DNA of 64,000 bases, from assembly GCA_964036045.1 (NCBI GenBank), contig OZ038381.1, positions 68,634,242-68,698,241 of the forward strand, read 5' to 3'. A model generated the notes under the pieces. That model made no database searches, was not told the origin of the DNA, and saw only the letters and a list, made by a program, of their open reading frames with translations. Shown one piece after another: positions 12,030 to 64,000 of the stretch. Every line of letters begins with the position of its first letter. Positions within the stretch are counted from its first letter, which is position 1. The stretch is from Eutreptiella sp. 'Long Island Sound 2002' (taxonomy: Eukaryota > Euglenozoa > Euglenophyceae > Eutreptiales > Eutreptiaceae). Position numbers and translations under genes: made by a program.

Positions 12030-12051
12030 CTTGGGGGTACGAACCTGACAT
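12030..12051 (+). repeat. Transposon A left terminal inverted repeat
   Basis: 22 bp starting CTTGGGGGTACG, directly after ACCAA. It matches the reverse complement of 20,656-20,677 with one difference (G/A at position 12). Confidence 0.9.
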
Positions 12052-15000
12052 CCCAAGGTGTCAGCCCCCACCCGGGATAGGTAGTTTCACTGTTGCACAA
12101 AAATGACCACAAACCCTCAAACATTCATTAGATTTCCGAAAACACCAGTTTTTGACCAGTGCTGTTTTTTGAAACCATGTTTTGACTCCCTAACCTCCCA
12201 GGGTTTCACTGTCAACGGTGAAACCCGTGGGCAAGGTCCATGCTACACGACAATCTGGGCCGTACCGAACCCCTTACACGTGTCTACATACCCCCCCCCC
12301 CTTGGGTAGTGGTGGTGGTTCACTTTGGGTGGGGTGGATTAAGTGAGCACCTGACTTTGCTTATTAGTGGTAGGAAAGGTACCCCACCAGGACCTGGAGG
12401 CATCAACAAAGTTGTGCCTGACCCCTCCAGTGTGTTTCACTAATTGGTATGCTCCAGAGGGAGGAAGAGTTTCACTGTTGACAGTGAAAGTACCATGCAT
12501 CCGGGCCAGAAATCCGGTGTTTCACCACTTGGTCACCTATACACTACAAAACATGTAAAAAAACGACCGGTTTGGTTGTGCTAGTAGCGTACCGCCCCTA
12601 CAACGGGGCATTTACCATGCCTAGTGGGTGGTGAGGTGGTGGGGTGGTATGCACCATGGTGGGTGGGTGGGGGGTCTACTGGGAATCAAACCCGGCTCCC
12701 ACAGGTACGAGACGAGGGTGGTAATTACTGGACACGACAACGGTCCGGCAATTTTTCCGGTTTGGTTCTTTAAGGCCTTTCCAAAAAAAAACACTTTACT
12801 CGTATTCCCTGTTTACCCATTGACACCACAGTATGGGAAACTATGGCCCTTGTCCCACGGCGAAGAGTGGCTGTCTGCCCACTGTTTTTCCGCACAACGT
12901 ACTGCGTGTTGTACCCTATACCAATGTATTCTTATCATTGTAAAAGTGGGATTTCACGTTGAAATTTGTTGTAACTTTTGAAAATACCTGAGTTTATATC
13001 TGCTGGCATTACCCTTCCATCCTTAACATTACCTTTACCTTCATGGCCACTTAGTTTTCCTCCGACACTTCCATTTTATAGACAGGGTTGTAGCTTTTGC
13101 CGTTTCGTTTCGTTGCGGTTTATTCTGCATTATAATCACCTGTTTCCCTGTTGACAGTGAAACAGCATCCCGGGACTTGTCCCCCGCTAGTGAGGCACGT
13201 ATTCCTAATACAGTGTTGGGCACGCGCTATGCATACACACGTAGTTAGTTTCTTATGTTGGTGCCGGCCCCAAAAAGAGGCGGTGGCCCGGTCTGCAGCC
13301 CAGAGGGATTCGAACTTGTGACGGTGATAACCCTATGGCGTGTCATTTGACCACTAGACCACGGTCCCACCTTGTACTACAGTCAACGCAGGTCGGCCAT
13401 ACTCAACACATTATGACAAGGAGTTTCACTGTTAACAGGGAAACTCCCGTACCAAACGTACCCACTGCATTCTTACAAGAAGTTTCACTATCAACAGTAA
13501 AACTACCCGAAGCAAGTGGGCACTTGGTACTTATGTGTCCACCTACTTCCTTCCTCTTGCTCTGTACCGGTAGTTTCTGAGGTATCACGGGAAGTTTCAA
13601 GACAGGTAAGACAAACACCAGGCAACTAGTGGTTTCACTGTTGACAGCGGAACTCCGTTCTCAAAAAGTGTCAACGGTCAAAGTACCCGTATTTGCATAG
13701 GCAGCGAACTACAAAACCTCCCGGGAACAGTCAATGCCTGCAAGTGGCTTGAGGTAGTTTCACTATTAACAGTGAAATTGCTTGCCATAGTGCGGTAAGT
13801 ATGGTATCTAGCTTCAAGTAGTTTCTGTCAACAGTGAAACTACTTGTCATAATGCTATAGGTATGGCAGTGGTACCCGGTTCCGAAAAATATAGCGCTAA
13901 AAAGAGCGAATTTTCTTTTTGGGGGGGGCGGGGGGGGGGGGGGCTACAAAAAGCCGGAACTCGAAATGGGGTATAGGAATCTTCTGGTCACATACAAACA
14001 GAACGAGCAGACGGCAACCAGTGGTTTCGCTGTTGACAGTGAAACTCAATTGTGAAAAGGTGTCAGTCAACAGAATAGCAAAATAGTAGAACTTGTACAG
14101 AGGGTGAAAGACAACACGTGGTGCTAAGACGAAGTGGCTGCAAGTGGTTTCGCTTTGGACAGTGAACGTCTGCGTGATCTAGTTCTTTGCTTGCCTCCCA
14201 CGTGAAAGGCGGGTGGACAACAGAGTGAATGCAGGCACATTTGGGGGGATAAGATCCTCACCTAGCACCTCACTGTCCCCCCACCCAACACAACCACAAG
14301 AAAGCACAGGGACGCATAACTATAGGAACCATGTGTACTCACTCGATGACCGGAAGTAGTTTCACTGTTGACAGTGAAACTTCTCGTGATACTGTGGTCT
14401 GCATTGGTGCTCACATAAAACTGTGGTAGTAAGACGTGTCCAACAGGTTCACTGTTGAAAGTGAAACTGTTGCCAGGATAGTGGGGGCTGTCGACACAGC
14501 CGTCCGCTTATGAGCACCTGCTTACCTAGTCCGTCCCCCGCCGGTCACAACAAACAACAAGAGAGGAAGTGGTTAGGCATGCATGCTGTGAAACAAACCT
14601 GATGGGTGGCGGCCAGGGGTTCGTTATCACGGGGGGCTACCAGTCGTAACTTGCAATGCCACGCGCGTCACCTGTGACAACGGACCTTACAACCACCAAG
14701 TCAAATGAAGAATGGTGTAGTGAATGCCATCTTGTGCTTTGCCTAGCCCGTTCTCTAAGGATTTACGGCCATGATTCCCCTTTTCGTACATCAGTGCCAG
14801 TTCATTTGGCGCCGCTACATGTGCCTTACCTCTTTATGTTGCACCACTCTCCACCATTTCTGTACCCTGTGCAACAATGTGGAATTGCCTGATGAATGCC
14901 ATTCCATACTGTACTATGGAGAAACGTGGTTGGTGAAAAGTACCGAAAAAGCAAGCGAAATTGGACAAAATTGGCCGTTCTAAGGCCGTTTTATGGGGGG

Positions 15001-15635
15001 GTTTCACTGTCAACAGTGAAACTGTGACTGCACAAAAATCCACTCACCTTGTTGTCAGGGGCATCTCATTTCATTTGCATGAGTTTCATTTGCCCAATAA
15101 GACCAAATGGCTTGTGCTTACCCTATACCACCTGTCTCCAAAGTCCATACACCGCTTTTCATGGTGTCACGCTTAGCAATCATCCATTCTCGATACTTAC
15201 ATTGTTGTTTAGTGGTGCACTATGGGGTCCCCCACTCGTCAGCTTTGTGCAGTGCTAATGCATTCCCATCTTGGTAGGCGTCACCACGGTCAAGCGAGGT
15301 GCACAAGTTGCATACCCCCCGAGGAAAAGCCCCGCAAACTAAATGTGGATGCATCAGTGTGGGCCATTGCAGCCTCTGTGCAGCCAGAGCAAGTAGAGAA
15401 ACAGGTGACAAAGCAGAACATGATCAAGTAGTTTCACTGTTGACAGTGAAACTCCGTGCTATGTAACGGCCAAACATCCCATTAGCAATAATTCTACAGG
15501 CACACATTGGAAAGCACACAGGAACTCCCTGTTATGGTCACCAGCTGCAAGTAGTTTCACCGCTGACAGTGAAGCTAACTGCGTGTGTATTAGGATGCAT
15601 GGTCCGCTCTACATGTTCGAACATGCAAACGTTGT
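12052..15635. other. Transposon A left part, noncoding or unresolved exons
   Basis: Palindromes every 60-250 bases dominate. A frame at 15,271-15,431 plus (C-terminal ...EKQVTKQNMIK) ends in a TAG that immediately precedes the palindrome at 15,430, and could be a terminal exon. A frame at 14,656-14,892 plus has no recognisable motif. A mixed G run sits at 13,920-13,943. Confidence 0.4.
13258..13374 (-). repeat. tRNA-like segment (possible SINE head)
   Basis: On the minus strand TGGTCTAGTGG (13,361-13,351) fits the RNA polymerase III A box, and AGTTCGAATCC (13,316-13,306) fits the B box at tRNA-like spacing. The acceptor, anticodon and T stems do not pair properly, so it is not a working tRNA. 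It could be a tRNA-derived SINE or a tRNA pseudogene. It lies within transposon A. Confidence 0.45.
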
Positions 15636-16066
15636 ACAGGCACACAATTGCTAAAACACAAAAACTCCCCGTTGTAGTCAAAAGATGCAAGTAGTTTCGC
15701 TGTTGACAGCGAAACTACCTACTTCTGTATTCACATGCATGAGTCCCCACTAGAATGCAAAGGCAAATGCAAATGACATCCCATGGCACATCGGAGGGTC
15801 TGGGTTGGGCTAAACGCACCGACTTAGAGGAGAGGGGCATGGGGCCAGTGGATCTCAGAAGACATTTGCAAAGACAATGCTCTCAGCCAGCCATTTGCTT
15901 AACGATGGGGAGGCCGGGGGGGGGGGGGGGGGGTCATTGTTGGGTTGCTTGAGGACCAGGTTCTTGTTGGCCTGAACCCACCCACTCACCCAAATTGTAA
16001 CAAAAGTTTGATGCACTCAAACTCACGTTTTGCCCATTACTATTGTTTTCTTTTTGTATAACAAAG

Positions 16067-16445
16067 GGCTGTCATCTTCCACAATATGTATCCTGCTTCA
16101 CCTCCGTGCGCACCTGCCGTACCTCAAGTACCTCAAGGACCGGGACAAGGTCAGGGGCCAGGACAAGGACACGGACCAGAGGGACAGGGCCGGCAATTGC
16201 CTCCCGGTGTGCTCACTATCAATCAAAGTGAGCCTGTCACCACAATTCAATGTGTTGGGTACCACCCCAATATCTCTTTCGATATCAGTATGAGCGGGGT
16301 GTCCATTGTCATCGACATGCCCCATGAGGCAGTACAACCCACCTACATGACGGCCGGCCGATTTTTGATGCCTCCGGTACAAGTACCTGAGGTAGTGTGG
16401 TACAATGGCTACTACATGTGGCGCTACGAGTGGCTGCACTTCTAA
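16067..16445 (+). CDS. Exon of unknown transposon A gene, copy 1
   Basis: A pyrimidine-rich tract ending TATAACAAAG (16,057-16,066) gives a good 3' splice site, then an open frame of about 126 codons to TAA at 16,443-16,445. The product starts with a proline/glutamine/glycine-rich stretch with repeated QGPGQG-type steps (residues about 20-45). It continues into an ordered-looking part with GYHPNISFDISMSGVS and PEVVWYNGYYMWRYEW, rich in aromatic residues. I do not recognise it. The copy at 18,817 differs mainly in one PHEAVQP/PQGALEP step. Confidence 0.55.
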
Positions 16446-16848
16446 TGATTCTGCCACCACGTTTAGGCCAAGGCTTGTCGTCGTAGCACCGTCTGCCTTT
16501 CGGCTAGTTCGTTGCAGTGCACTTTCACTGTTAACAGTGAAACACCATGCAACCCTAATGTGTATGTGCACACGGCATGAAAGCAGAGCTCAGTTTTTTC
16601 TTACCACTTCTCTGTTACCCAAGCTCTCTGCTTTGATGCTAAGCTGTTTACCTACCTCCGGCTGCATTCCAACGCACTAGCCTCTTCCCAGTTTCTATCC
16701 GGCAGGTACATGAATATATCCAAAGGAAAAATGTTCTCGGCCGCTTTCTTGGGCCGAGGTTTCCTTTTTCCTTGCCATTTTCTGGCCCTGTTTGGCAATG
16801 CCTCCACAGTGAAACACTGTCTTTGTACCTAAACTCAATATTGACAAG

Positions 16849-17016
16849 GGCCAGCAGCAGGCAATTGCAGCGCACATCGAGGCTGCCAACAACGTGGGAC
16901 CTAGTGGACGAAGAGCCCTAGGGCTGAAACGCAAACACAAAGCCACGGCCGTGACCATCACCAGTGTGGCTCAGCTTCAGCACGCTTCCCGGAGGACCCG
17001 AAGTGCAAAGCAGTAG
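16849..17016 (+). CDS. C-terminal exon of unknown transposon A gene, copy 1
   Basis: A CTAAAC branch-like motif followed by ...TTGACAAG (ending 16,848) gives a 3' splice site; 55 codons follow to TAG at 17,014-17,016. The peptide begins GQQQAIAAHIEAANNVG and has a basic region RRALGLKRKHK that resembles a nuclear localisation signal, and it ends RRTRSAKQ. How it joins 16,067-16,445, which has its own stop, is not clear; they may be different genes. Confidence 0.5.
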   Translation, partial: GQQQAIAAHIEAANNVGPSGRRALGLKRKHKATAVTITSVAQLQHASRRTRSAKQ

Positions 17017-18055
17017 GCTGAATGGGACCTGTCAGTTGTGCTGTTCTGGTAGCTGCCTCTGTTTGTACTATTGTTGTCCCGTAAACACTGGCTGGTGTGC
17101 TGGGTCATCACATTGTACTGTTCACTGCTGCACTGAGTTTCACTGTCAACAGTGAAACACACTGCCACCATGGCCTCCGTGGCTGAAATGCCTGAGACCA
17201 TCATTCGTTGTTCTGCTCTGTGATGATATACTGTTTCATTGGGCAGTGCACTGCCCTCATTTCAGCTTTTGTTTTCCAACAGACAACAACACTCGGTAAT
17301 AAGCCATAAATTTTGCCCTCCAGCCGCTGTCCTGGGCTGTTGTTGCATCACGTGCACTGTGTATCTGCTGACTGCTCGCACTTGAAAGTAGGCACAAAGT
17401 TTTTATTTTCTACGTGCTTTTTTTTTTTTTAACTTTCTAACTGCTTTTTCCAGGTTGCACCTCTAAGTGCATTACAAAGATGTGTTTCACTGTTAATAGT
17501 GAAAGTGTCTCCCATGCTGGTGTGATTTGCTGGTTCCAAAGTGTTGCATTAGAAATACAGTTTTACAACACATGCAGCGGCCCCGTGTGTACACGTACCG
17601 TGCTTGTGTTTTGTGTTGCATGTTTGCATACACGTCTTTGTCACAGGGGGAAGTTGTTCGTGTATGACTGCAGTCCACCGCAGCAGACTGCATGGAAGGG
17701 GGTGGGGGGGGGGGTCTTGGGATACGGTCTGCTACACCTGATGCTTCCACATCTGTAGGAGTTTCACTGTTGACAGTGAAACAATATGAAATATGAGCCC
17801 CACACTGGGGTTTTGGGAAATTGAATTTTTCTGTGAGTTTCACTGTTGGCCACGGAGGCCAACAGTGAAACTTTTTGCCCGTTTTTGGGGTCCCCGTCGG
17901 CCCGTAATGTCAGGTTTGTACCCCCAAAACCAAGGCACTAGGATGGGGCCAATATAATAGCATTGTTATACGCTCCACAATTGGTACACCAAACCGGCGG
18001 AGGAAATTTCAGCACACAAAAAATGCACCCGCTACAGGTAGTTGTAGAATGCACG

Positions 18056-18388
18056 CTAAAAGATCAACTGAGGTTTTGTGTTCCTAGTTTTGGGCTTCAC
18101 AGTAGGATGGATGTTGAGGTAACAAGCAGTGCGCAACTCCACATCTAAATGCTTGGCTAGGTCATTGATGAAAAGCTGGTCACAATCTTGTTGGCCAAAT
18201 GCAGTAGTCTGGTAGCCATTCAGTACTTTGTGTTACTGTCCAGGGATGAGCACCTTGAGACAGGTGTATTTCTCTGTGGGAGTGGCCTTGGAAGGGTGCC
18301 CCTTAGCCTTCAGGCCTTCCAGGCTTTGCTGGGCAAGGGTCTCCTTGCCTTCGAGTGGGGTGGGGGTGGCTCGAACACTGTCCTCGCT
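18056..18388 (-). pseudogene. Unknown gene fragment in A flank, truncated copy
   Basis: The minus strand reads a peptide with SVRATPTPLEGKETLAQQ and EKYTCLKVLIPGQ, a TAA, then in the same phase HKVLNGYQTTAFGQQDCD and INDLAKHLDVELRTACYL to TAG at 18,058-18,056. This flank of transposon A was copied by the tandem duplication, so this copy lost its upstream part at 18,390. Function unknown. The internal stop may mark an intron or a mutation. Confidence 0.4.
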
Positions 18389-18816
18389 GTACAGGCACAC
18401 AATTGCTAAAACACAAAAACTCCCCGTTGTAGTCAACAGATGCAAGTAGCTTCGCTGTTGACAGCGAAACTACCTACTTCTGTATTCACATGCATGAGTC
18501 CCCACTAGAATGCAAAGGCAAATGCAAATGACGTCCCATGGCACATCGGAGGGTCTGGGTTGGGCTAAACGCACCGACTTAGAGGAGAGGAGCATGGGGC
18601 CAGTGGATCTCAGAAGACATTTGCAAAGACAATGCTCTCAGCCAGCCATTTGCTTAACGATGGGGAGGCCGGGGGGGGGGGGGGGTCATTGTTGGGTTGC
18701 TTGAGGACCAGGTTCTTGTTGGCTTGAACCCACCCACTCACCCAAATTGTAACAAAAGTTTGATGCACTCAAACTCACGTTTTGCCCATTACTATTTTTT
18801 TTTTTCTATAACAAAG

Positions 18817-19195
18817 GGCTGTCATCTTCCGCAATATGTATCCTGCTTCACCTCCGTGCGCACCTGCCGTACCTCAAGTACCTCAAGGACCGGGACAAGG
18901 TCGGGGGCGAGGACAAGGACACGGACCAGAGGGACAGGGCCGGCAATTGCCTCCCGGTGTGCTCACTATCAATCAAAGTGAGTGTGTCACCACCATTCAA
19001 TGTGCTGGGTACCATCCCAATATCTCTTTCGATATCAGTATGAGCGGGGTGTCCATTGTCATCGACATGCCCCAAGGCGCACTAGAACCCACCTACATGA
19101 CGGCGGGCCGATTTTTGATGCCTCCGGTACAAGTACCTGAGGTAGTGTGGTACAATGGCTACTACATGTGGCGCTACGAGTGGCTGCACTTTTAA
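18817..19195 (+). CDS. Exon of unknown transposon A gene, copy 2
   Basis: Duplicate of 16,067-16,445 with the same 3' splice site and stop. The differences are few, and several change the amino acid in the segment PQGALEP. Both copies keep the frame open, so the duplication is recent, or the exon is under constraint, or both. Confidence 0.55.
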
Positions 19196-19596
19196 TGATT
19201 CTGCCACCACGTTTAGGCCAAGGCTTGTCATCGTAGCACCGTCTGCCTTTTGGCTAGTTCGTTGCAGTGCACTTTCACTGTTAACAGTGAAACACCATGC
19301 AACCCTAATGTGTGTGTGCGGAGCATGAAAGGAGAGCTGAGTTTTTTCTTACCACTTCTCTGTTACCCAAGCTCTCTGCTTTGATGCTAAGCTGTTTACC
19401 TACCTCCGGCTGCATTCCAACGCACTAGCCTCTTCCCAGCTTCTATCCGGCAGGTAAATGAATATATCCAAAGGAAAAATGTTCTCGGCCGCTTTCTTGG
19501 GCCGAGGTTTCCCTTTTCCTTGCCATTTTCTGGCCCTGTTTGGCAATGCCTCCACAGTGAAACACTGTCTTTGTACCCAAACTCAATATTGACAAG

Positions 19597-19764
19597 GGCC
19601 AGCAGCAGGCAACTGCAGCGCACATCGAGGCTGCCAACAACGTGGGACCTAGTGGACGAAGAGCCCTAGGGCTGAAACGCAAACCCAAAGCCCCGGCCGT
19701 GACCATCCCCAGTGTGGCTCAGCTTCAGCACGCTTCCCGGAGGACCCGAAGTGCAAAGCAGTAG
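19597..19764 (+). CDS. C-terminal exon of unknown transposon A gene, copy 2
   Basis: Duplicate of 16,849-17,016 with KRKPKA in place of KRKHKA in the basic patch. The frame and stop are kept. Confidence 0.5.
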   Translation, partial: GQQQATAAHIEAANNVGPSGRRALGLKRKPKAPAVTIPSVAQLQHASRRTRSAKQ

Positions 19765-20655
19765 GCTGAATGGGACCTGTCAGTTGTGCTGTTCTGGTAG
19801 CTGCCTCTGTTTGTACTGTTGCTGTCATGTAAACACTTGCTGGTGTGCTGGGTCATCACATTGTACTGTTCACTGCTGCACTGAGTTTCACTGTCAAAAG
19901 TGAAACACACTGCCACCATGGCCTCCGTGGCTGAAATGCCTGAGACCATCATTCGTTGTTCTGCTCTGTGATGATATACTGTTTCATTGGGCAGTGCACT
20001 GCCCTCATTTCAGCTTTTGTTTTCCAACAGACCACAACACTCGGTAATAAGCCATAAATTTTGCCCTCCAGCCGCTGTCTTGGGCTGTTGTTGCATCAGG
20101 TGCACTGTGTATCTGCTGACTGCTCGCACTTGAAAGTAGGCACAAAGTTTTTATTTTCTACGTGCTTTTTTTTTTTTAACTTTCTAACTGCTTTTTCCAG
20201 GTTGCACCTCTAAGTGCATTACAAAGATGTGTTTCACTGTTAATAGTGAAAGTGTCTCCCATGCTGGTGTGATTTGCTGGTTCCAAAGTGTTGCATTAGA
20301 AATACAGTTTTACAACACATGCAGCGGCCCCGTGTGTACACGTACCATGCTTGTGTTTTGTGTTGCATGTTTACATACACGTCTTTGTCCCAGGGGGAAG
20401 TTGTTCGTGTATGACTGCAGTCCACCGCAGCAGACTGCATGGAAGGGGGCGGGGGGGGGGGGTCTGGGGATACGGTCTGCTACACCTGAATGCTTCCACA
20501 TCAGTAGGAGTTTCACTGTTGACAGTGAAACCATATGAAATATGAGCCCCACGCTGGGGTTTTGGGAAATTGAATTTTTCTGTGAGTTTCACTGTTGGCC
20601 ACGGAGGCCAACAGTGAAACTTTTTGCCTGTTTTTGGGGTCCCCGTCGGCCCGTA

Positions 20656-20677
20656 ATGTCAGGTTTGTACCCCCAAG
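20656..20677 (-). repeat. Transposon A right terminal inverted repeat
   Basis: Ends ...GTACCCCCAAG and is followed by the ACCAA target duplicate. A second copy with AAA in place of AAG at its end stands at 17,907-17,928, followed by ACCAA at 17,929-17,933, and is a product of the tandem duplication. Confidence 0.9.
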
Positions 20678-20804
20678 ACCAAGGCACTGGGACGGGGCCA
20701 ATATAATATCATTGTTATACGCTCTACAATTGGTACACCAAACCGGCGGAGGAAATTTCAGCACACAAAAAATGCACCTGCTACAGGTAGTTGTAGAATG
20801 CACG

Positions 20805-21185
20805 CTAAAAGATCAACTGAGGTTTTGTGTTCCTAGTTTTGGGCTTCACAGTACGATGGGTGTTGAGGTAACAAGCAGTGCGCAACTCCACATCTAAATG
20901 CTTGGCTAGGTCATTGATGAAAAGCTGGTCACAATCTTGTTGGCCAAATGCAGTAGTACGTTAGCCATTCAGTACTTTGTGTTACTGTCCAGGGATGAGC
21001 ACCTTGAGACAGGTGTATTTCTCTGTGGGAGTGGCCTGGGAAGGGTGCCCCTTAGCCTTCAGGCCTTCCAGGCTTTGCTCGGCAAGGGTCTCCTTGCCTT
21101 CGAGTGGGGTGGGGGTGGCTCGAACACTGTCCTCGCTGTGTGAGAGTGACCCTTCAACTTGGATGCGTCGGGGTGGGGGGCTCAA
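20805..21185 (-). pseudogene. Unknown gene fragment in A flank, original side
   Basis: Same sequence as 18,056-18,388 but joined to its native upstream DNA (reading from 21,185: MSPPPRRIQVEG then SHSEDSVRATPTP). It has an additional TAA where copy 1 has a tyrosine codon. Function unknown. Confidence 0.4.
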
Positions 21186-21354: not shown

Positions 21355-21545
21355 TTTGAAAGTGGCCCACAGGTGGGCCAAGCGGCAACATTACGCCCGC
21401 CGCCCGGAGGCTGCCCAAACTCGCACAACTTGGGACAGGAACAGAAGTGGCCCACAAGTGTGGCGAATGGCTACATACCAACTGCAGCGTCACGGGTTCC
21501 CAATGCCGCATAGTGGGGCACAGAATCAGAAATGGCCCAAACATC
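21355..21545 (+). repeat. Two outlying units of the ~95-bp satellite
   Basis: Two units with GTGGCCCACA..GTGGGCC / GTGTGGCG, a GGCTACATA step and GGTTCCCAATGC match the large array at 41.4-43.2 kb (reverse orientation of that family). They lie right before the decayed ORF1 copy. Confidence 0.65.
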
Positions 21546-21549
21546 TTCT

Positions 21550-23050
21550 TCCGGGATGTTGTACCCTTCCGGTACTTCCTCAAATCCAACGTATATGCTA
21601 CAAAGGAGGATGTATCTTATGCGGTAGGGAAGGATAAGGGTGTTGACAAGTTCTATCCATCGGTGTTAGATCTTAGGGACGACTGGCCTGGTAGGAAGTC
21701 CATAGGGGATTGCATCTAGCAGAGGGACAGGCGTACCGTTAATACAGTACCCGATCTTTGGTACCGTGTTGCCGAGCAGCAGTGTTTTAACATTTGGTCG
21801 GTTTGACACAAACGATGTGGTCCTCGTGCAAAGAGGCCAACAAATGTTTATGCGAAGAGTGGTAAACAATGTAGGTGGTCGTCGCACATGGGTCAATGTT
21901 CTTACAATGTCCCTTCGTTCGCCGTTCAAGCACGGGCTGTTTGTACTAGTCATTGGAATGCACTACAGGGTGCACAAGGTGTTCTTTGCATGGATAATTT
22001 TTGTCCACGTAGCCTCAAACCGGTGCCCGGAAATGAGAAACGGTCCCTTAACTATACATCCGCCGCCGTCTTAATGTTGGATAGACCAGTGGATGTCTTG
22101 CCTTCTTTTCCCAGTTTGGATGTATTGTGCCGAGGCAAGGCAATGCTGCGACCCTGTTGGTACACAGTCATAAGAATTTCATCGACGGCCTGCAGTCATC
22201 GATGGAAGACCCTATCCGCCTTCAGTTTGTGCGTTGTCCCTTGGACATGCGACGCACCAATGATACCAGCCCTGCTCGGTACGCATTCTTCCTTACTCCC
22301 TTGGCATTGTTAGCCACCCTTGACCTTGTCCCCATTATACACGGCCTTCAAGAGGTGCGGCAACACACGCAGCAAAGCCTTCTGCTATTGGTAGATGATA
22401 ATATTCACGACCGTTTTCTGAGACTGATGTACAGGGTCAGCTATGCTCAGTACAACCTCCCTTTGTTTCTTACGCGCACCCTTGTAGTGTACGGGACATA
22501 GCACCCATATAAATGCTGCACAACTCTTTGTTACAGAAGATCTTCCCCTTTATTTACCTATTTTCCTTATGGTTCACTGAGTTTAGGAGCTGAGTTCCCA
22601 TCTTTTCGAAACTCAACTGCATGGAGCGTATGATGCGTGTTCTTCGACACTTGGCGCACAAGTGCCGTCAACCTTTAGAACGGAAGTCAAATACCCTCAA
22701 AGGCTTGCATACACTTGGTAATGCTAATCATAGTACACGAGATACACAAGTGCAGGGGTTAATAAATCTTCTATATGGGTACATTCCAGCTCTGTTTATG
22801 AATGGGTCACAAGTCAGGGACTGTCATTCGGCACCGCAGAGCGGTGAGCATGGTTCAGGTCCTTGACGCAGTCGTTGTCTGCACGTCTTGATGCGTGTCA
22901 CTATAAGGAGATGGTTGAGTATGTTCAAACTGTTGTTTTTACGTGGTTGCTATGGTCACAGTGGTAGGCATGCCTGCCAGGTGTTGCACATAGTGAGGAC
23001 CCATGTGAAGCACTGTTGAGTAGAGTTGTTCACTTAATGGCACAACACCC
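21550..23050 (+). pseudogene. Decayed ORF1 relative (B'), 5' part
   Basis: Colinear in DNA and protein with ORF1 of transposon B from KVYASKEDL to the MAQHP block. In-frame stops include TAG for Gln (21,718-21,720, after SIGDC), a TGA at the IWSV step and TAG for Trp in YGTWHPYK (22,499-22,501). Indels force phase changes after about 22,070. It retains ...SHMGQCSYNVPSF, MDNF for the WFDNF block and LLVDDNIH. It lacks a start codon and terminal repeats. Interrupted at 23,051 by transposon B and continued at 29,590. Confidence 0.85.
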
Positions 23051-23055
23051 TAATA

Positions 23056-23080
23056 CTTAGGCGGCTCTATACGCACGTAG
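23056..23080 (+). repeat. Transposon B left terminal inverted repeat
   Basis: 25 bp, beginning CTTAGGCGGCTCTATACG, identical to the reverse complement of 29,560-29,584. Preceded by the TAATA target duplicate. Confidence 0.95.
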
Positions 23081-23833
23081 ACTTCGTTGCCAAAAGGCAC
23101 AATTCATGGCGATTTCAACATCCGTTTTTTGCACCCAAAAAAAGCATATCATTTTTTCGGCCAACTCCACGTGTATTTTCATCGTTGGATACAACAACCT
23201 CGCCTTTTCTTGCTTCCAGAGGTGCACATATACACCCCCTATTCCGGGCTGAAAATTGTATGATTTAAAATTTTTGGGCACCGCAGTGCCCAAAAATTTG
23301 AAATGGCCTTTTTTAGTGGGTTCTCCGGTACACCTCTGTAGTCATCTCCACAAGTGATGTCCTACTGTAGCAGCAGGCATCAAAACTTGGCATACCCGTT
23401 ATCAATGGGTCATCGCACTGCGGTGTTATACTCGGAAGGCCACGTATAATGTACCTTGCCCAATCACTTCCATTCCCGTCCAAATGTGCACTTGAAAATG
23501 GACTTCCAGTACTTTTGGGCACTGCAGTGTCCAAAAAATTTAAAACTCCGCATCTCACTCCTATTGGTTCCCATTGCGTAACACCTGACAAAGGACGTGT
23601 GAATCATTGGACGTTGGCACTCATCCTCTGCTCATTGGAAATGTACTGCCGGTTGTCTGACTGCCACCTTGGAATGTACCCAGGCTTTGAAACGTTCCAC
23701 GTCCATTGGGGGGTACATTGTTTGGATCTTCGCTAGCTGCTTTTGGTCTATGCCGCATCAGGTTTGTTTTGTGATAGCGTCTCTGTTTTCTTTGTCCCCT
23801 TACCTTTGCTGCCTGCGAACATGACTTTTGTCC
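23081..23833 (+). promoter_or_regulatory. Transposon B leader with two palindromes
   Basis: No coding region is supported. It holds two palindromes (23,268 and 23,513) between the left end and the ORF1 start, the expected position for promoter and transposase-binding sites. The segment from ACCCAAAAAAAGC (about 23,137) to GTGTATTTTCATCG (about 23,170) is alignable with the leader of transposon C near 59,337-59,390. Confidence 0.45.
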
Positions 23834-26148
23834 ATGGATGCGGCTCCCTTCCGGCAGTTCCTTAGTTCAAAGGTATATGCTTCAAAGGAGGATCTATCTG
23901 AGGCTGTGGGTAGGGATAAGGGTGCCGATGAGTTTTGTACGTGGGTGTTAGATCTCCGGTTGGAATGCAGAAGTAGGCGGTCCGTTGGTGAATACATCCA
24001 ACAAAGGGACATGCGGACTATTAATTGTCTGCCGGACCAATGGTTCCGTGTTCCTGCGCAAGAGATTTTTAATATATGGTCTGTTCTACACAAGAGGTGT
24101 CATCCACGTGCCAAGAGGGCTGTAGGTGTCCAACCCAAGAGTCGTGTGCAACGTAGGTGTTTGGCTCACATGGGTCAATGTTCTCACAATGTCCCCTCCT
24201 TTGCTGTTCCAGGAGCAACTACGTGCACCAGTCTTTGGCAGACCTTGGAAGGTAAACCCGCTGTCCTATGGTTCGATAATTTTTATAGACGTAACTTCCG
24301 GCCTGTGCCTGGTAATGAGAACCGGTCCCTTAATTGTACAACCGGTGCCATCATACTCCTGAAACGACCTGTTGACGTTATGCCGTCTTTTCCTAGCCTC
24401 TCGGTTTTGCGACAGAGGATTGGTTACACTGCAGACTTGTTGGTGCAGAGCCATAAGAACTTCATTGATGGCTTGCAAGGGTTGATGGACGACCCCATCC
24501 GCCTTCAACATGTTCGTTGTCCATTGGACATACGACGGGCTAATGTTACCAGCCCAGCTTGGACCCCCTTTTTTCTCACAGACCTAACTGTGTCCGCTAC
24601 CCCCGACCTTGTCTCTATTATTCATGGGCTCCAGGAGGTGCAGCAACACACACAGCACCGTCTTCCACTGTTGGTCGACAAAAATATTCACTACCGTGTC
24701 CTTAAGCTCGTTTACAGCATCAGCTATGCTCGGTACAACGTGCCCCTGTTCATTACACGTACCCCGGTAGTGTATGGCACATGGCACCCATATAAATATT
24801 GTGTAACCCTGTGCTACAGAAGATTCTTCCCTTTATTTACCTATTTTTCCTATGGTTCACTCAATTTGGGCACTGCAGTGCCCAACTTTCCGAAACTCAT
24901 CTATATGGAGCGTATGATTCTGATGCTCTTGCACTTGGCCCATAAGTGGCGCCAACCTTTGGAACAGAAGTTACAGACTCTAAGGGGTTTGCACCGACCG
25001 GGTAACGCTAATCACAGCACACTTCTTACACAGGTGCAAGGGTTGGTAACGCTGCTGTATGGTTACATTCCAGCCTTGTTTATTATTGGGTCGCAAGTGA
25101 GGGATTGTCATTGGTCTGCACAGGGAGAGCAGCACGCTGCAGGGCCATTGCTGAGCCGTTGCCTACACGTCCTTCTGAGGCTCACCCTAGGTGATGAGGA
25201 CAAGGTTGAATATGTGCGCACCATTGTTGTTGCTAGGTTGTTGTGGTCACAGTGGTTTGCCCGCTTACCTGGGGTGGCACACAGTGAGGAACCGTGTGAG
25301 GCCCTGTTAAGCCGTGTTGTGCACTTAATGGCACAACACCCTGGGAACTGTACGTTGCAACAGGTGCATGACCTGTTTATACTCACTCCCGTTGCAGGCC
25401 AGACCCCAAAGGACCTGCAGTACGTTAATGTTCCCAAGGGACTGCCACAACTGGTTGATCGTCGTTTCACAGAATTGATGGCGCGATTTGATGTTGGTGT
25501 TATACCCCCCCTGGTCTGGTCCAGTCAGAAGTCGAGTATCGTGCAAGACACGTGGGATCCTGCCAAGATGGATTTTCCTTGCGCACTAGATACGGTGCTC
25601 ACTGCAGAGCGTTACCGAGATCTATGTGCCAAGACATTGCAAACACTTGTTAAACCTCTTAAAGTTGATGCTGACGTGATGACAGAGCTGGGTAGACACG
25701 TGCTACAACGTCCTCCAGGTGATATGGACACAACAGTAGCACAGGCACACGACATGTTACGTGCATGTAATACACCAGACCGGTACAAGCCACGCCGGCC
25801 AGCACGCGTTTTTGCGCAAAGGGACCCCGCCCGGATACCCGCCCCCCCCCAATGCTGATGGCGACAGTGACAGTGATGAGGACCCCCCCCCCCCCCCGCT
25901 GGTGGGGCAGCCGGAGCTCCAGACATGAGGGCTGCTGATTTTGTGGGTGATGATGGATGGGACCCGGACCCCCCCCCCCCCCTCCAGAAGCAGTGTCTGT
26001 TCACAGCGATGATTCAGATGCCCCCGTGGCTGTCCTTTCGGAGCTGAATGAGTTTGACCGTCAATTTTTACCGGGTGCATCCGACTGTGATGCTATTTCT
26101 GCGATCTGTGTTCAATCGTCGAGCGCTGCCAATAGTCATCAACATTAG
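23834..26148 (+). CDS. Transposon B ORF1, candidate transposase of unknown family
   Basis: The first ATG is at 23,834 (MDAAPF). The strict frame runs 674 codons to TGA at 25,856-25,858. Three C runs (9, 15 and 14 bases at 25,842, 25,883 and 25,969) each shift phase; past them the frames read a proline-plus-acidic tail (DGDSDSDED, FVGDDGWDPD, VHSDDSDAPV) to TAG at 26,146-26,148. Comparison with B' and C picks out WFDNF (Asp148), LLVDKNIHY (Asp282), YGTWHPYK (317-321), RRFFPLF, and EEPCEALLSR (Glu485-Glu489). A D-D-E catalytic triad is an inference from this spacing. No zinc finger or known DNA-binding domain is visible. A palindrome at 24,866 encodes LGTAVPN inside the protein. It could equally be a replication or structural protein. 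Confidence 0.75.
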
Positions 26149-26228
26149 AAGCCTGTAAATCAACAATTTGCAGCCCTGTGGCCTTTTGTAGTGTGCTGTG
26201 TGACCCTTTGTTGCCCCTTTGCTAAGCT

Positions 26229-27535: not shown

Positions 27536-27594
27536 GGCTGTTTGGATCCTAGTGGTACCAGTGGTCTCCTGTTCTAACAGTGAACGTGCATGAA

Positions 27595-29559: not shown

Positions 29560-29584
29560 CTACGTGCGTATAGAGCCGCCTAAG
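29560..29584 (-). repeat. Transposon B right terminal inverted repeat
   Basis: 25 bp, perfect inverse of the left end, followed by TAATA at 29,585-29,589. Confidence 0.95.
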
Positions 29585-29589
29585 TAATA

Positions 29590-45715: not shown

Positions 45716-45929
45716 ACCCCGTCATTTCCCTGCTTGTGTGGTTGAGGTTAGGGAGGGTATGCCTGTTTTTCTTTTTCAGGTTTTCTTTTCCAGTAGAGTG
45801 TTTTCCCACCAGCTTACCAAGGTCCGAACCCCAAAAAAATTAGAATAGGAGGTATGTTACTCCGTTCCTTAGTTAGTTCCGGTGGAGGGTGGATGGGGCA
45901 CCGCTCCCCCAAGCGCCCCCTTGACACCT

Positions 45930-46830: not shown

Positions 46831-46837
46831 GAGGGGT

Positions 46838-57480: not shown

Positions 57481-57566
57481 TTCCCTAACAGTGCATGCGG
57501 GCTGTAGTTGTCGTGCTAGAGCTCCCTATAGGTTTGTGGCTTTGTGTGTACCGGTGCGGATAGCGG

Positions 57567-59291
57567 TTGGCCTGCCACCAGCTGAACCACGTGGTGGACG
57601 CCTCTAACATGACTTCACACTTGACGGGCCGGCTCGACAGACTACCCCACAACGTGCAACATGACCTGCTGATAGAATACGACATAAATGATGAATCGGC
57701 ACCATGCAGCTCTCCTACGGGCCCAAACGGACTTGCGAGCATGGGACGGGGACATGCCCAACCAGTACCCGGCCCTACGTCAGCCACAACATGGCACATT
57801 AGACGCACTCCCGTACCCACAGGCATACCAGCGGGTACCAAATCCCACAAAAGCCGGGGACGTGGAACCGAACCCAAGCCGGTAATCACACGGACCAGTT
57901 GCCTCATACCCCCCCCCCCCCTCTCCCCTCAACAACGAGACCCATGCGGGACCTACCCCCTCCGGTATAGATGTACCGGTACGGGTGTACCGGCACCCCT
58001 TGATGGTTGTTACCCCTTGGGCAGTGAGCACAACGCACTTGAGCGTGACGCTCCCATAGGTGACGTAAAGGGGATAGGTACCCTCGGTCAAACACATGCG
58101 CCAACACCCCCACCCGGGCACGAACCAACAATCAACACATGCTCGGGTTTCCTCTCCACACCGCCGGCCCCATAAAAGGATCCAAGGGCGTACATGTTCC
58201 AACATTCCACAGACCCACGCCAACACATAGCCGCGCCAACGGTGCCGCGGGAAACCAAAATCATCGAAGAACTGATAAAGCTACACACGGCGGAAAACGA
58301 GACAAACATCACACAGTGGGAACAATAAACAAGCAAAATGTCCACCATACGGGAGGCCCACGGACATTTTCAGTGCGTAGCTCGCCAAACACCACCAACG
58401 ATTCGTGACTATTGAACACATTTGGCGACAAACACAACACGGCACCTGGTACGATAGGAACACATACCAATTATTGACCAACACGTAACATGAACTACGG
58501 AAAATTATGACGGTGCAACATGCGGCGGACTCCAACGGGCTGCACACCGTAGCCAATATGGCTGACGTTGAACACTAGACCGTGCACACAGGGGTAGACA
58601 AGGATGGAATCCAAGAGGTACGCAACCGCTCATACCTCATGCTACCCCAATCAACCGCAATCAGCACAACCACGAGTGGCGGATGCAAAGGGGGGCGTTA
58701 CAGACCGAGTGGGGCAGTAGCGACGACGAACGGGTAAAGCAGATCCTCCGTGTCCCCGGCAAACTGGATGCACGGGACCTAGTGGTAGCCGAGCAGGGCG
58801 ACAGGTAGGAAACCATGGCGCTCCAAACCTACTGCATGGACTGCCTCCACGGGGCACCTTTACGGAAATTATACTAGTACCTCTGAGCTGTTTGCGGATT
58901 CGACAAATTTCTTGTCCACAAATGGTTAGATGAACACGAGAAGCTGACAAGTCACCTCCAACCGAGGCCCATCATGGCCTTGCACCTCCACAACACCATA
59001 AAGCAAGGACAGGAGCCCACACACCGAGCGTACACCGTGTCCAAGGGTACCCCCCTACAAAATCGTCCAGAAAACCCAAAGAACACACTAGGACCAAAAC
59101 CGGCAAAGACCTTGGTGGTGGTGGAATGTCCCCCAGAGACGTGGATCCGCAACCAAGACGCTTTCATGAAGCGCATCAATGGACACCAGTCTGATGTGGC
59201 CTCCATGATCACCAGCAAGGACCCGCACAAAGCATTCAAGTGGAAATGTGCCTCCGAACACACAGCCGGGCAAAGTGGTTCACAAGCTTAG
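57567..59291 (+). pseudogene. Worn coding region with a 2A-like remnant
   Basis: Multiple phases are open in turn: 57,567-57,700 (HVVDASNMTSHLTGRLDRLP), 57,688-57,885 (HHAALLRAQTDLRAWDGDMP ... NPTKAGDVEPNPSR), and 58,974-59,291 (MALHLHNTIKQGQEPTHRAY ... LVVVECPPETWIRNQDAF). GDVEPNP at 57,856-57,876 matches the first part of a 2A motif, but the closing GP is SR. The whole may be the eroded 5' half of another retroelement. A 14-base C run at 57,909-57,922 shifts frame. Confidence 0.35.
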
Positions 59292-59998
59292 GCCACGCAA
59301 ACTGCCCACCCCTGTGGCACACTTTTGCCGGGTTCTATACCCAAAAAGAGCAGTGTAAAAAACTCAACTTTTTTGAACATGTATTTTCGCGGCCGATGAA
59401 GTTAGGGGTTCAAAACACCCTTTCTACACTAGTACTTCATGATGATTGAAAATGCTGATCTCAAAAGTATGTTTCCCATGATTGCAGCTGGGGCCAGCAC
59501 CTTCCTTGACGAAAAGTACTTGTGGGATGTCCCGCAATTACATTTGTTGGTGATATTCAATCGTGCACATGTTGGTTACTATAGTCACCGCGTATTGGAC
59601 ATGTCTTGTTACTTTGTATCTTTGGTATCAAGTTTATCATTGAAGCAGCTGGGGCCAGCACCTTTGCAAGCAATTTCACCTTTCCTTGGTTCTCTTTGGC
59701 AGAAAGGTGCGGGTGCAAGCACCTGCTGACTCAAATGGTCTTCTCGAATTCCTTTTTGGCTCAAAGTAGCTGGTGCCAGCACCTTTCAACGCAATCGAGT
59801 CTCTGAGATGATGTTCCGGACTATGAGTGCTGGCACCAGCACCAACTCCAGTGAGCAACCTGGTTAGTATTATGCCCATATCGATTCCACCGATGTTTAT
59901 CTTCATAAGGTACGTGCATCTCATTGAAGGATAGGGAGTGTGCTGTGTTTTACCACCATGTGCATCGTGTATTTCACTTGCATCACCAGACTTTTGTA

Positions 59999-62056
59999 AT
60001 GAAATTTTCCTACTCCGTTGTTCGCCATCTACTACGTACTGGACATTATTCAAATGGGTCTTCTTTATTACGTGATGCCCATGCTGGCGAGCCGGGGGTT
60101 CCGATGTTAGTGCACCTATTGGCACAGGTCCGCTGCAACCGTCGTACTCGTAAGACTGTACCTCAAATTGTTGTTGCAAGTAGGCAAAATAGGAAGCCTC
60201 GTTGGTTGTCCGTCTTTACGAACCAATTATATATGCTATGGTCTGTCCTGCACAAGGCTGCACGTCCAACTAGTAAGGTATCACGGAAAGACACACTTAC
60301 AGGTCAACCTTTGACGCAGGGTGTTCGCCGTGTTTTAGCAAACTGTGGTGTTGTTACCAATCGCCCTGTACCACTATCTGCCAAGGCTACCTTGGCTGCA
60401 CAACAACTGTGGTCGTCCATGTCAAACCACTCAGCTGTGCATTCCACTGCTACTGCACTTCGCTCCTTGAACGATGTTACACGGGTTTCGCTTGATGCGG
60501 AGCCTGAGTTTATTCGTGTTCCCCTCGATATTGAACGGGACAACGTTAGGTCACTACAATTCCGGCCACTGTTGTTGACCAATTTGACTACCGGTGGGAT
60601 CCTTGATTTGCTACACATTCTACAAGAGATTTAGGACATACAGCGGCACACCCGGCGCCCCATGCCCCTAATAATTGATATGAAAATACATTTTTATTTA
60701 CGGCGTTTTTTGTACGGGGAGTCATATGTGCAGTACAATTTCCATGAGCATCTGTCCATGTTGCCTTGTATGTACGGTGCGTGGCACCCTTACAAACACA
60801 CTGCCCTTGAGGTATACAAGGCCTTCTTTCCTATCTTTGCTGCCTTGGAAAACTGTAATTTGCAAGTGGGTGCCATGGTGTACCACCACCGTAAGCTGCT
60901 CCAAATTGAGAAAGTGGTAGCAGCACTACTACTTGTAGGTAACTCTGTACGTGTACGTATTCAACGCAAATTGGAATGGTTGCAGCTGGCACCAGCATCT
61001 CTCTCATAAGTTCAAGTGGATACAGCTACCCGTTGGTTGCAAGGCCTACAGTCCTTGCTGTTTAGTTATGTCCCTGCGCTTTTTGCGTTAGGCGTACAGG
61101 TACACCACTGCAACTGGTCAGGGCGACAGCCAGGCACTGGTCAGGCAGCCCACACAGTTTTGCAATGGAGCCTGTTGCTACATCTGTTTCTTACTGGCGA
61201 TTGGGACGCCAAAACAGAATACGTTAGCAGGTTGAGTGTCACACTTGCAGTGTGGCAGGAGTGGATGAGTAATACCCTAGGTTGTCTCTTTGCTGAAGAG
61301 ATTGGTGAGGCCCTGTTGTCCCGGCTCTCCTCCCGGGTCAAGCTCCATCCAACTGCATTATCGCAACCCGCTCTAATGGACTTGTTCCTCAGCATGCCAC
61401 ACCCGCGCATGGGCACCAAAACCCTTCGCGGCAAGCTACGCACTGGTCTGTGCGATCTTTTTCGAGCACGCCTCCGTCGCTTTATCGCCTGGTGTACCAG
61501 TCCCCAGCTTTTGTTTGCCCCATTTACTACAGCTAAAACCACTGCTTTTGTTGGCCTTCTACCTGAAGGACACACGTTTCCCAAGCCCATCCCTGATTCT
61601 GTTAATGAGGCTGCTCTGCGAAAGGTTTTTCGCAGGAGTGTGCTGTTATTATTATCCAACCGGTCCCCTCCGGAAGGTGTTACTGAGTACTTGGATCAAT
61701 GCAACTTTGGGAGAGACCCTGCAGAGGTTGCACGGCTCACTAGCCTAATGGAACGGTTCCGCACACGGAACAGGCGCGGGAAAGGGGGGGGGAAGGGCAA
61801 GGGTAAGGGTGCCCCTGATGCTGATGATGCTGATGCACCAGATCGGTTTGTGGGGGTAGAGGATGACCACATATCCGTGTCCAGTGCTGATTCCCTTGGC
61901 TCCCTGGGGCATCTGGTAGTTGATGTGGATACCATGAGTGATGCCCCCCCCCCCCCCCCTTGGTTTTGCCTCAAGAGGAAGACGAATTCAGTTTGCCTCC
62001 CAGTGACGATGAGGAGGGGGCAGTGTTCCAAGAATAACCCCCCTCCCCCTGCCTAA
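59999..62056 (+). pseudogene. Transposon C ORF1, two stops and a lost block
   Basis: The ATG at 59,999 (MKFSYSVVRH) places LWSVLHK at the same distance from the start as in transposon B ORF1. One phase runs to about 62,056 with only two stops, TAG at 60,632-60,634 and TAA at 61,007-61,009. Conserved with B: VPLDIERDNV, LTNLTTGGILDLLHILQE, IIDMKIHF, MYGAWHPYKH, FFPIF, SYVPALFALGVQVHHCNW and EEIGEALLSRL. About 50 residues are missing where B has WFDNF, so Asp148 of B has no counterpart. The tail has a basic stretch KGGGKGKGKG, DDADAPDRF, a 17-base C run at 61,944-61,960, and past the run an acidic PQEEDEFSLPPSDDEEG end. A palindrome sits just before the TAA. Probably not a working protein. Confidence 0.75.
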
Positions 62057-62500
62057 CTATAGGCTAGGGTTACGCTTGTCTGCATGAGTAGCTGGTGCCA
62101 GCATTCCCTCCTATTGTTCCTGCTTTCCTCGCCGCACATTGCACACGCACCGTTGTCTGTTGTCTGTCACACTGTTTTCTGTTCGGTCTGTTTGGTCTGG
62201 ATGCAATGGAATCAAAGTCTGGCACGTGTACTGACCAGTCACGAAAACATGATCATTTGAGACGGCCGTCTCCTTCCAGGGCTTTGGAACAAGTGCGCAA
62301 TTTACCAGTGCCATGTCAGTAGTAGCGAAGCAGATGCCGCTGTCGGGGATTAATTGACTGCGATGTGCGCTGCCCTTCGTATGGACAGAGCCACTGACAC
62401 ACCGCTCAATTTGCGCCATTTTCTGCTGAAACTGCTGTTCCATTACTGATTTCTGTCGATTTGCCACACCATTTCCCTTCAAACGAGACTCTTCATCATA
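62057..62500 (+). other. Transposon C ORF1-ORF2 interval
   Basis: No supported gene. One palindrome at 62,090-62,103 lies just after the ORF1 end. Confidence 0.5.
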
Positions 62501-63721
62501 ATGTCAGATGCAACCCCTGCTGAGGGTGCTGGTGCAATGTCACCTCTACCAATGACACCGTCAACGAACGGGGGATTCCTAAGCCAGCCTCAGGATGTGA
62601 CAGCATCACAGCCAGTTCCAGCGCCAGGTGGTAAAGGAGGCAAGAAAGACAGTGCACTGAAGATCAAGCTCGCGGACCACTGTGAAAAAAAGGAGGTGGA
62701 AATACCCTTGGAGAAACTGCGATGGGACGAGAAGATGCAGTTTGGGCAGATACGAAAGTGGTCCGAGGATGAGGTACTGAACAAGGTCAAGGACCTGAAG
62801 GACCGACCGCCGACTACCCTTATCCGGATTGTAATATGGGGTGGTGGAAGTATGCTGCCTTCTGTGCGCACATTTTGCTGTTTCGTTACCAATAACGTTC
62901 GTCGGTGCTGGTGCCAGCATCGCTTGTCCAAAATTGCCGTTGACTTTGATCATTTGTGACCGGGTGCAATATCAGGTGGGATCTACTGGATATTGTCTGG
63001 CCAGCACATAGTGGAGGCTCCTCGGCGCGTGAAACTGGAGCTGGAGAAGCCAAACTTGCCCCCTCCCCGATGGTGTTCCCATTTCTTGGCGACTGTTGTG
63101 CGGCCTGAGACCCCGTTGACCATTCGTGAGTCCCTGGCAGGAATCAGTCAAGCCAACCAGACAGCACGAGCACCAACTTTGTGTGAGAGAGTTCAGCGAC
63201 TCGTGGTGGAATACGAAAGGGATACCGAGGGGAACTTGACTGCCAGAGAGCACCTGACGAATTTGTGGGTGAAAGGTGGATTCAGCGCTCAAGATGGCAC
63301 ACTGGTGTGTGTCTGCCCGTCAGCACGTCCGTTTGTTTGTGGTTTCATCGCCCTTTCAGCGTACTCCGCCATCTGTTGCCCGGTGTGAATCCTGTGGTAC
63401 CCCTTGTAGGCCAATATGATAAAGCAGTGGTCTCCTGTGGCTCTGTTGGTGAGTACTTGTGGACGTGAAGCAGCGTTTGCCGTGCAGATGCTGGGGGCCC
63501 GCGGTCATAGCATGACTGTGAAACAAATGCGTTGCTTCGAAGGACAGGTGCCCCCCGATATCCGGACAATCTGCAAGTTTATGGCTGACACGGCCAATGG
63601 TGGAGCACAGCTCAAGAAGATGGGAAAGCGATTGAAACTGGATCGGTTATGGAGTTGGCATCTGTGTCATCCCGAGAACAATCTCATCCATGAATCTCGC
63701 CGTATGTTTGCCCTCCCATAA
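62501..63721 (+). CDS. Transposon C ORF2, four exons, 300 residues
   Basis: Exons 62,501-62,830, 63,005-63,304, 63,410-63,448 and 63,488-63,721 join in phase 0 throughout with GT-AG borders, giving 300 residues without a stop. Introns are 174, 105 and 39 bases. The N-terminus is low-complexity (SDATPAEGAG...); VEIPLEKLRWDEKMQFGQ and DEVLNKVKDL align with transposon B ORF2; then TPLTIRESLAG and, near the end, DRLWSWHLCHPENNLIHESRR, the best conserved block (DRLW..L.HPEN.LIH.SRR). The third intron is unusually short and could be retained (39 bases keeps frame). No known domain is recognised; a DNA-binding or accessory role is a guess. Confidence 0.75.
62831..63004 (+). other. Palindrome-bearing intron of transposon C ORF2
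   Basis: GTAATATG donor and GTCTGGCCAG acceptor. TGCTGGTGCCAGCA stands near the middle (62,906-62,919). It is positionally equivalent to intron 1 of transposon B ORF2, which carries the B palindrome instead. Confidence 0.7.
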
Positions 63722-63852
63722 GGATGCATCTGCGGTGGCTGTTCGATTGCAATTTGTTGTGAGAGGTGCTAGGGCCAGCACCCATCGTTCGGAAATGCCG
63801 TTTTGGTGCCTGCAAACACTGGGGTCTCAGAGTTTGTACTATGATTGCTAAG

Positions 63853-64000
63853 GTGGACTGGGTGAAAGAGAAAAGTGTGAATCCCTCCTGGCAAGCCGAA
63901 GTGACTTGTATTTCGAGACATACACCTGGCGTTGGACAGAAGAGGACCCTTTTCCACCGTGGAAATACGTTGTCAGTGCGCCGATTTGGAAGGATGTCAG
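63853..64000 (+). CDS. Transposon C ORF3, start only
   Basis: After a possible 3' splice site (GATTGCTAAG, ending 63,852) an open phase reads CESLLASRSDLYFETYTWRW and EEDPFPPWKYVVSAPIWKDV to the window edge. It matches the beginning of transposon B ORF3 (KLLAKSPR, KWTWSAENPLPS, APLWQDE). Start codon and the rest are not resolved. Confidence 0.6.
   Translation, partial: MDWVKEKSVNPSWQAEVTCISRHTPGVGQKRTLFHRGNTLSVRRFGRMS

Follow-up and report, generated by a model that had tools for sequence, protein, structure and literature searches.

We analysed a 64-kb stretch of contig OZ038381.1 of Eutreptiella sp. 'Long Island Sound 2002' (the whole stretch is referred to below as the window), which houses a group of DNA transposons with CTTRGG ends, 5-bp target duplications and a cassette of three open reading frames (ORF1, ORF2 and ORF3). 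The window has a GC content of 51.8% and a eukaryotic look, with genes containing GT-AG introns. Elements A, B and C, together with a decayed relative, D, and other features are listed in Table 1.

Paired ends, target duplications and a nested empty site

Every plus-strand CTTRGG was paired with later minus-strand CTTRGG sequences more than 300 bp apart, and equal flanks of 5, 6 or 8 bp were required. The scan of the window retrieved three pairs with identical flanks, all 5 bp long: the ends of A, the ends of B and a chance pair with CCCCC flanks, whose inverted repeat matched at 10 of 20 positions. Over their first 22 bp the ends of A agree at 21 positions, and exact copies of ACCAA bound the element; the inverted repeats of B are identical at 25 of 25 bp and are bounded by exact copies of TAATA. 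The CTTRGG hexamer itself is not enriched (78 matches versus 87.75 expected in the window); the evidence lies in the paired ends and the duplications. The shared ends and 5-bp duplications that the original prediction ascribed to A and B were thus confirmed.

Element B is inserted inside ORF1 of the older relative D, which it splits in two. When B and one TAATA are removed, the D frame continues in phase across the site (...EALLSRVVHLMAQHPNNRRFEHVHDLF...), and the rejoined D ORF1 can be aligned there to protein P0001 over 91 residues without a gap. Because the D frame reads on across a single TAATA, this exact nested empty site establishes the 5-bp duplication of B at base resolution.

A tandem duplication of ~2.75 kb covers the right half of A, its right end and ~460 bp of flank. 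As the duplicated stretch includes flank, the tandem duplication should postdate the insertion of A, and A should have been ~5.9 kb long before it. No match to ORF1-3 was seen in A at E 1e-3 in a tblastn-type comparison, among the results listed for 8 of 44 queries. By eye, a small frame (MYPASPPCAP...WLHF) is seemingly open in both tandem copies (~16.09-16.45 and 18.84-19.20 kb) and is a possible A gene.

Table 1. Features of the elements and of the surrounding sequence (positions are those of the window)
Feature	Position	Strand	Description
Element A	12030-20677		8648 bp; ends CTTGGGGGTACRAACCTGACAT
A left target duplication	12025-12029		ACCAA
A right target duplication	20678-20682		ACCAA
Tandem duplication	15630-18390 and 18385-21139 (span 15630-21139)		97.2% identical
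A palindrome	12204-20530		TTTCACTGNNNNCAGTGAAA / AGTTTCACTGTYRACAGTGAAACT; 24 dispersed copies, up to 3 mismatches
Long palindrome near A right end	20585-20621		A-type arms around GGCCACGGAGGCC; 37 nt, perfect 16-nt arms
Element D, first part (decayed ORF1 relative)	21555-23055	+	60-75% amino acid identity to B ORF1 in pieces
Element D, second part (ORF1)	29590-30028	+	54-56% amino acid identity to B ORF1
Element B	23056-29584	+	6529 bp; perfect 25-bp inverted repeats CTTAGGCGGCTCTATACGCACGTAG
B left target duplication	23051-23055		TAATA
B right target duplication	29585-29589		TAATA
B ORF1, candidate transposase	23834-25858	+	WHPYK, CEALLSR; D150, D234, D284, E361, E461, E491
B ORF2	26229-27535	+	exons 26229-26553, 26678-26994, 27074 onward; last intron unsettled
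B ORF3	27595-28861	+	27595-27933, then from ~28040; splice sites provisional
B palindrome	23276-29378		GGGCACTGCAGTGCCC / TTTGGGCACTGCAGTGCCCAAA; 9 dispersed copies, up to 3 mismatches
B palindrome sites	23276, 23517, 24868, 26609, 27224, 27771, 27985, 29031, 29363
Element C	59287-64000	+	left end inferred from sequence and position (CTTAGGCCACGC, ACAAG before it); right end beyond window
C ORF1, defective	59999-62056	+	in-frame TAG and TAA
C ORF2	62501-63721	+	329 amino acids, open; exons 62501-62849, 62976-63304, 63410-63721; GT-AG introns
C ORF3, comparable stretch	63927-63995	+	WRWTEEDPFPPWKYVVSAPIWKD; remainder beyond window
C palindrome	59484-63782		GGTGCTGGNNCCAGCACC; 8 dispersed copies, up to 3 mismatches
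C palindrome sites	59484, 59645, 59706, 59766, 59826, 60982, 62904, 63765
Chlorophyll a/b-binding protein gene	31435-32628		Pfam E 9.5e-50
Reverse transcriptase frame	33265-36015	-	916 residues; weak RNase H match

The three-gene cassette and the ORF1 family

ORF1, ORF2 and ORF3 lie in the same order in B and C, as originally proposed. ORF1 of C matches that of B with a tblastn E value of 3e-53; the ORF2 products are 30% identical over 296 amino acids (pairwise blastp E 2e-31), and the ORF3 products are 39% identical over 23 residues (pairwise E 3.7e-6 in the frame that scored best among three). Two database proteins appear by eye to be fusions, P0003 of ORF1 and ORF3 and P0031 of ORF1 and ORF2 sequence, as would be expected of further cassette copies. 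Exon 2 of B ORF2 carries one in-frame TGA. ORF1 of C has two in-frame stops and, judged by eye against the ORF1 alignment, also lacks the WFDNF block, so that decay is a simpler explanation of the stops than a non-standard code in which TAA and TAG are read as Q.

The ORF1 family comprises at least 39 clusters, obtained by combining 19 from a first protein search with 35 from a second, which scored the best 8000 candidates and in which 4 of the first 19 clusters were not listed. The largest ORF1 cluster has 288 member sequences; cluster P0041, which corresponds to the first ORF2 exon of C, has 107. Pattern-based scans of viral contigs and GTDB genome contigs confirmed no ORF1 relatives.

Several acidic residues are conserved in the alignment of 17 ORF1 proteins (numbers are counted from the TTG at 23828 in B). 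D150 is found in all 16 rows that have a residue at this position, D284 and E488 in 16 of 17 each, and D234, E361, E461 and E491 in all 17. In the 16 rows measured, 132-149 residues separate D150 from D284 and 198-280 separate D284 from E488. Such a pattern would be compatible with a long insertion in a D-D-E enzyme, and ORF1 is most likely a transposase of the RNase-H type (D-D-E).

The original prediction took ORF1 as the transposase of a new or very diverged superfamily; searches with ORF1 in Pfam and in PDB sequences gave no credible match. In Pfam, the 17 aligned members (E up to 0.5) matched no hAT, KDZ, MULE or integrase model, and the consensus of the family (E up to 10) matched no transposase and nothing at its cut-off; among PDB sequences no E value was better than 0.5. 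The weak Pfam matches that did appear, all short of the curated cut-off where one was given, are not believed. They comprise single matches in 3 of the 17 members (EGF_laminin, 0.065; G3P_pilus-bind, 0.093; Phage_C, 0.16), Focal_AT (0.038-0.053) and three weaker ones, all below cut-off, for the consensus, and Dickkopf_N (E 0.16) for part of C ORF1. The same applies to B ORF2, which gave CENP-N (E 0.011, 15.5 bits versus a cut-off of 25), DUF6633 (E 0.21) and HPIP (E 0.18), and to the first exon of B ORF3, which gave CBM_AftD (E 0.053). The proteins of B had no match in PHROGs, and PADLOC returned none for C ORF2 or for part of the ORF1 consensus.

The first part of ORF2 (IPLEKL, QxR, ILSGQHIVEA) recalls by eye a ParB domain, and an arm of the A palindrome, GTTTCAC, resembles the parS site. 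The ParB idea was dropped after profile comparison: an hhalign comparison of ORF2 with ten environmental-plasmid ParB proteins, a weak test with an ORF2 profile of two sequences, scored 15.17, a value reached by 26 of 100 column shuffles and surpassed by the reversed sequence (16.87). NCBIfam, PHROGs and tblastn in phages likewise gave no match, and a search of ORF2 against PDB profiles returned a single unrelated match (E 0.47).

Element-specific palindromes and their possible readers

A, B and C each carry a dispersed palindrome of their own, and in this window the palindromes are element-specific. Counted over the whole window at fixed spacing, with at most 3 mismatches allowed in the 16 fixed bases, the A palindrome occurs 24 times inside its element and 0 times outside, the B palindrome 9 and 2 times, and the C palindrome 8 and 0 times. 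Both outside B-like sites lie in A, at 17241 and 19989, and are counterparts of each other in the tandem duplication. Without the five that sit in the second tandem copy, the 24 A sites come down to 19; the long palindrome of A is also found in the first tandem copy, at 17836-17872. When the three element stretches were shuffled 60 times, 56 shuffles had no site and 4 had one.

A motif-free scan, in which every perfect palindrome of a stretch was used as a seed, gave 25 recurrences in A, 8 in B and 7 in C, compared with 2 in the first part of D, 0 in its second part, and 0, 1, 1, 0, 4 and 2 in six control stretches, where the 4 fall within a 10-bp tandem repeat. Seven of the 9 B sites and 7 of the 8 C sites lie outside annotated exons, with coding sequence making up 61% of B and 67% of C. 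The palindromes and the nested empty site are additions to the original prediction.

A candidate D-specific palindrome, GGGAACTNAGTTCCC, was dropped, its 2 matches in the window comparing with 3.48 expected. The exact A and B palindromes, the ones searched for, are absent from viral contigs. The B site at 24868, inside ORF1, encodes GTAVP, which is also present in P0005 (~37% identical), so that the palindrome and the peptide it encodes may be linked.

The central pair of the 19 A sites is TG in 10, CA in 4, TA in 4, GG in 1 and CG in 0. The 9 B sites have the centres CTGCAG (5), CCGCAG (2), CTGCGG (1) and CAGCGG (1), and the central pair of the 8 C sites is GG in 3, TG in 3 and CA in 2. Over the whole window, the observed/expected ratios are 0.64 for CpG, 1.30 for TpG and 1.31 for CpA, so the genome is probably methylated. 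The centres of A and B are what decay of a methylated central CpG would leave, a suggestion to be read with the fact that the window is CpG-poor throughout.

We consider it reasonably probable that these elements form a previously undescribed group of DDE-like transposons and that their proteins bind their own palindromes in a VANC-like manner. ORF1 would act at the CTTRGG ends and make staggered 5-bp cuts, as we infer from the duplications and the conserved acids. ORF2 and/or ORF3 would be accessory proteins, at least one of which may bind the palindrome of its element as a symmetric dimer or higher oligomer; as the reader of the palindromes, ORF1, ORF2 and ORF3 are all candidates. Spread through introns, intergenic gaps and ends, the palindromes would label the element along its full length for recognition by its own proteins. 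The most likely use would be anti-silencing or self-specific regulation in a CpG-depleted, probably methylated genome, as with VANC. Element A, with no recognised cassette, would keep its sites for a protein supplied in trans.

Several observations weigh against this reading. Sequence searches gave no credible known domain for any of the three proteins, and the place of A in the group rests on its ends, duplication length and palindromes. Palindrome specificity comes from a single window with one copy per element, and the motif-free scan found no palindrome of its own in D. The controls of that scan left out 41301-47699, where palindrome-rich tandem arrays give up to 10 recurrences; the palindromes there form head-to-tail arrays, as opposed to the dispersed sites of the elements. 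With free spacing (0-6) and up to 3 mismatches, 3 of 33 A-type, 4 of 13 B-type (2 of them in A) and 3 of 11 C-type matches fall outside their own element. Two of the 9 B sites and 1 of the 8 C sites lie inside exons, and one more B site, 27224, falls in the provisional last intron of ORF2. The centres of C fit CpG decay only in part, the 3 of 8 that read GG being unexplained. Finally, over all eleven A arm pairs there are 31 one-sided and 3 two-sided changes, and all 3 of the latter are complementary.

The palindromes could instead be sites of the ORF1 transposase itself, unusually spread subterminal sites with no anti-silencing role, which we regard as possible but rather doubtful. The first palindrome lies 174, 220 and 197 bp from the left ends of A, B and C, thus close to the ends; subterminal transposase sites are usual in Ac and Spm, and of the two ORFs searched, ORF1 has more database relatives than ORF2. 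Yet the sites extend through introns and the middles of elements, whereas transposase sites are generally confined to the ends.

It is also unlikely that ORF1 is a very diverged hAT-type transposase, which would make the group a hAT branch rather than a superfamily. The SxxxCExxLS block of ORF1 resembles by eye what we take to be the hAT C-terminal motif, but the CTTRGG ends are unlike the usual hAT ends, and the Pfam searches described above returned no hAT model for either members or consensus. In favour of this possibility, hAT5 elements with 5-bp duplications are on record (PMC12730594).

It seems to us improbable that the palindromes, instead of being protein sites, serve in introns and untranslated parts as RNA hairpins or DNA cruciforms, with roles in, for instance, splicing, stability or the production of small RNAs. 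Such a role would suit the position of most B and C sites in introns and other non-coding parts, the perfect arms of the long A palindrome near the right end, and the three complementary changes mentioned above. However, selection for an RNA hairpin would be expected to raise covariation in the core, whereas no such excess is required of a duplex site contacted by two equal subunits. In the nine-base core of the 19 A sites, there are 18 one-sided arm changes and 1 two-sided change, where 1.11 would be expected if the arms were independent; in addition, the B palindrome has no loop nucleotides. The lack of excess covariation in the core favours duplex DNA dyads over RNA hairpins for the A sites. 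Very improbable, lastly, is an origin of the palindromes as relics of a tiny nested palindromic repeat spread by chance within each element: each set is indeed near-identical within its element, but the B site in ORF1 hardly arose by insertion, since the stretch that holds it shows no inner gap in the alignment with other ORF1 proteins, and the same habit in three diverged elements is unlikely by chance.

Surrounding sequence and comparison with known systems

Parts of the antenna protein recur by eye within the chlorophyll a/b-binding protein gene, which may be fused or partly duplicated. Together with the GC content, this antenna gene is suggestive of a green-lineage alga; Cymbomonas has a similar GC content (51.4%; PMC10675990), but no feature of the window links it to that alga. 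The reverse transcriptase frame is probably a long interspersed nuclear element (LINE). Nested long palindromes form an array at 46892-47623, adjoined by a 22-bp minisatellite (45935-46817) and by 137 copies of the 10-bp repeat TATGGGGACC (47621-48980), which lie inside a 515-codon frame. A degenerate repeat with GGCCCACNNGTGGGCC arms is found at 41380-43150 and also upstream of D, at 21363-21560; the stretch at ~41.4-43.1 kb, with its GGCCCAC arms, was rejected as a further element because it is partly tandem repeat.

Transib duplications are 5 bp long, as are those of A and B, and DDE-type acids are plausible in ORF1. The CMCT clade, which includes Transib, is described as having duplications of 2 to 5 bp, termini that are mostly CA..TG, and shared C(2)C and H(3-4)H motifs between the second D and the last E (PMC12730594). 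In contrast, the ends here are CTTGGG / CTTAGG. If D284 is assigned as the second D and E488 as the last E, a choice on which the result depends, CxxC was found in 1 of 17 ORF1 proteins, Hx3-4H in 7 (in P0004, P0005 and P0006 at a similar offset) and both together in 0. The original prediction had set Transib aside on account of its ends; the CTTRGG termini agree with this, and the joint count adds to it.

Ginger ends read TG..CA and so differ from CTTRGG, and an integrase core of the Ginger2 / IS481EU kind would be expected to be found by Pfam. The likeness to both lies in the duplications, which are 4 or 5 bp in Ginger2 and 5 bp in 1 of 11 copies of one IS481EU family, but the ends reported for IS481EU are TG..CA (PMC10045372). 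With hAT5, the group shares the 5-bp duplication (PMC12730594), unaccompanied by any match to hAT sequence profiles. Accessory genes beside a large transposase recall KDZ elements (Kyakuja, Dileera, Zisupton), from which the group differs in the absence of a profile match and in its 5-bp duplications, 8 bp being reported for Zisupton and a Dileera (PMC12730594). As the features of CMCT, KDZ, hAT and Ginger2/IS481EU are not all present, we filed the group in none of them.

Of the new or very diverged superfamily first proposed, what stands is that these DNA transposons form a coherent group, characterised by CTTRGG ends, 5-bp duplications and a cassette of three genes; the transposase role of ORF1 is putative. 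The group may be a superfamily or a very diverged branch; hAT families with 5-bp duplications exist (PMC12730594), which the original prediction did not take into account. A literature search at abstract level, with most subscription journals outside its reach, gave no earlier report, and an earlier description is possible. Eukaryotic DNA transposon superfamilies are few, 24 being given for Repbase (PMC12730594). This catalogue would be enlarged by a group with an unmatched candidate transposase, an end rule of its own and a nested empty site that is exact to the base.

The VANDAL elements of Arabidopsis are of the MULE type. MULE target duplications are 9 bp long, against 5 bp here; no MULE transposase model was matched in Pfam, and ORF1-3 showed no credible relation to a known family. 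The likeness lies in family-specific motifs placed in the element's own non-coding parts, beside accessory genes (PMC5735166). VANC21 is reported to gather on the non-coding parts of VANDAL21 and to bind YAGTATTAY there; this motif seldom occurs in other VANDAL families, the motifs of VANC6 are different ones, and VANC binding accompanies loss of methylation (PMC5735166). Within the window we likewise found motifs that are dense in the non-coding DNA of their own element and rare elsewhere, with a few looser look-alikes outside. Unlike the VANC motifs, which are described as short, in one orientation and tandem-spread (PMC5735166), the sites here are long dyad palindromes dispersed singly. With the sites mapped, three candidate proteins per element and VANC as a yardstick, private palindromes that differ between related elements offer a direct test of self versus host recognition and of escape from silencing.

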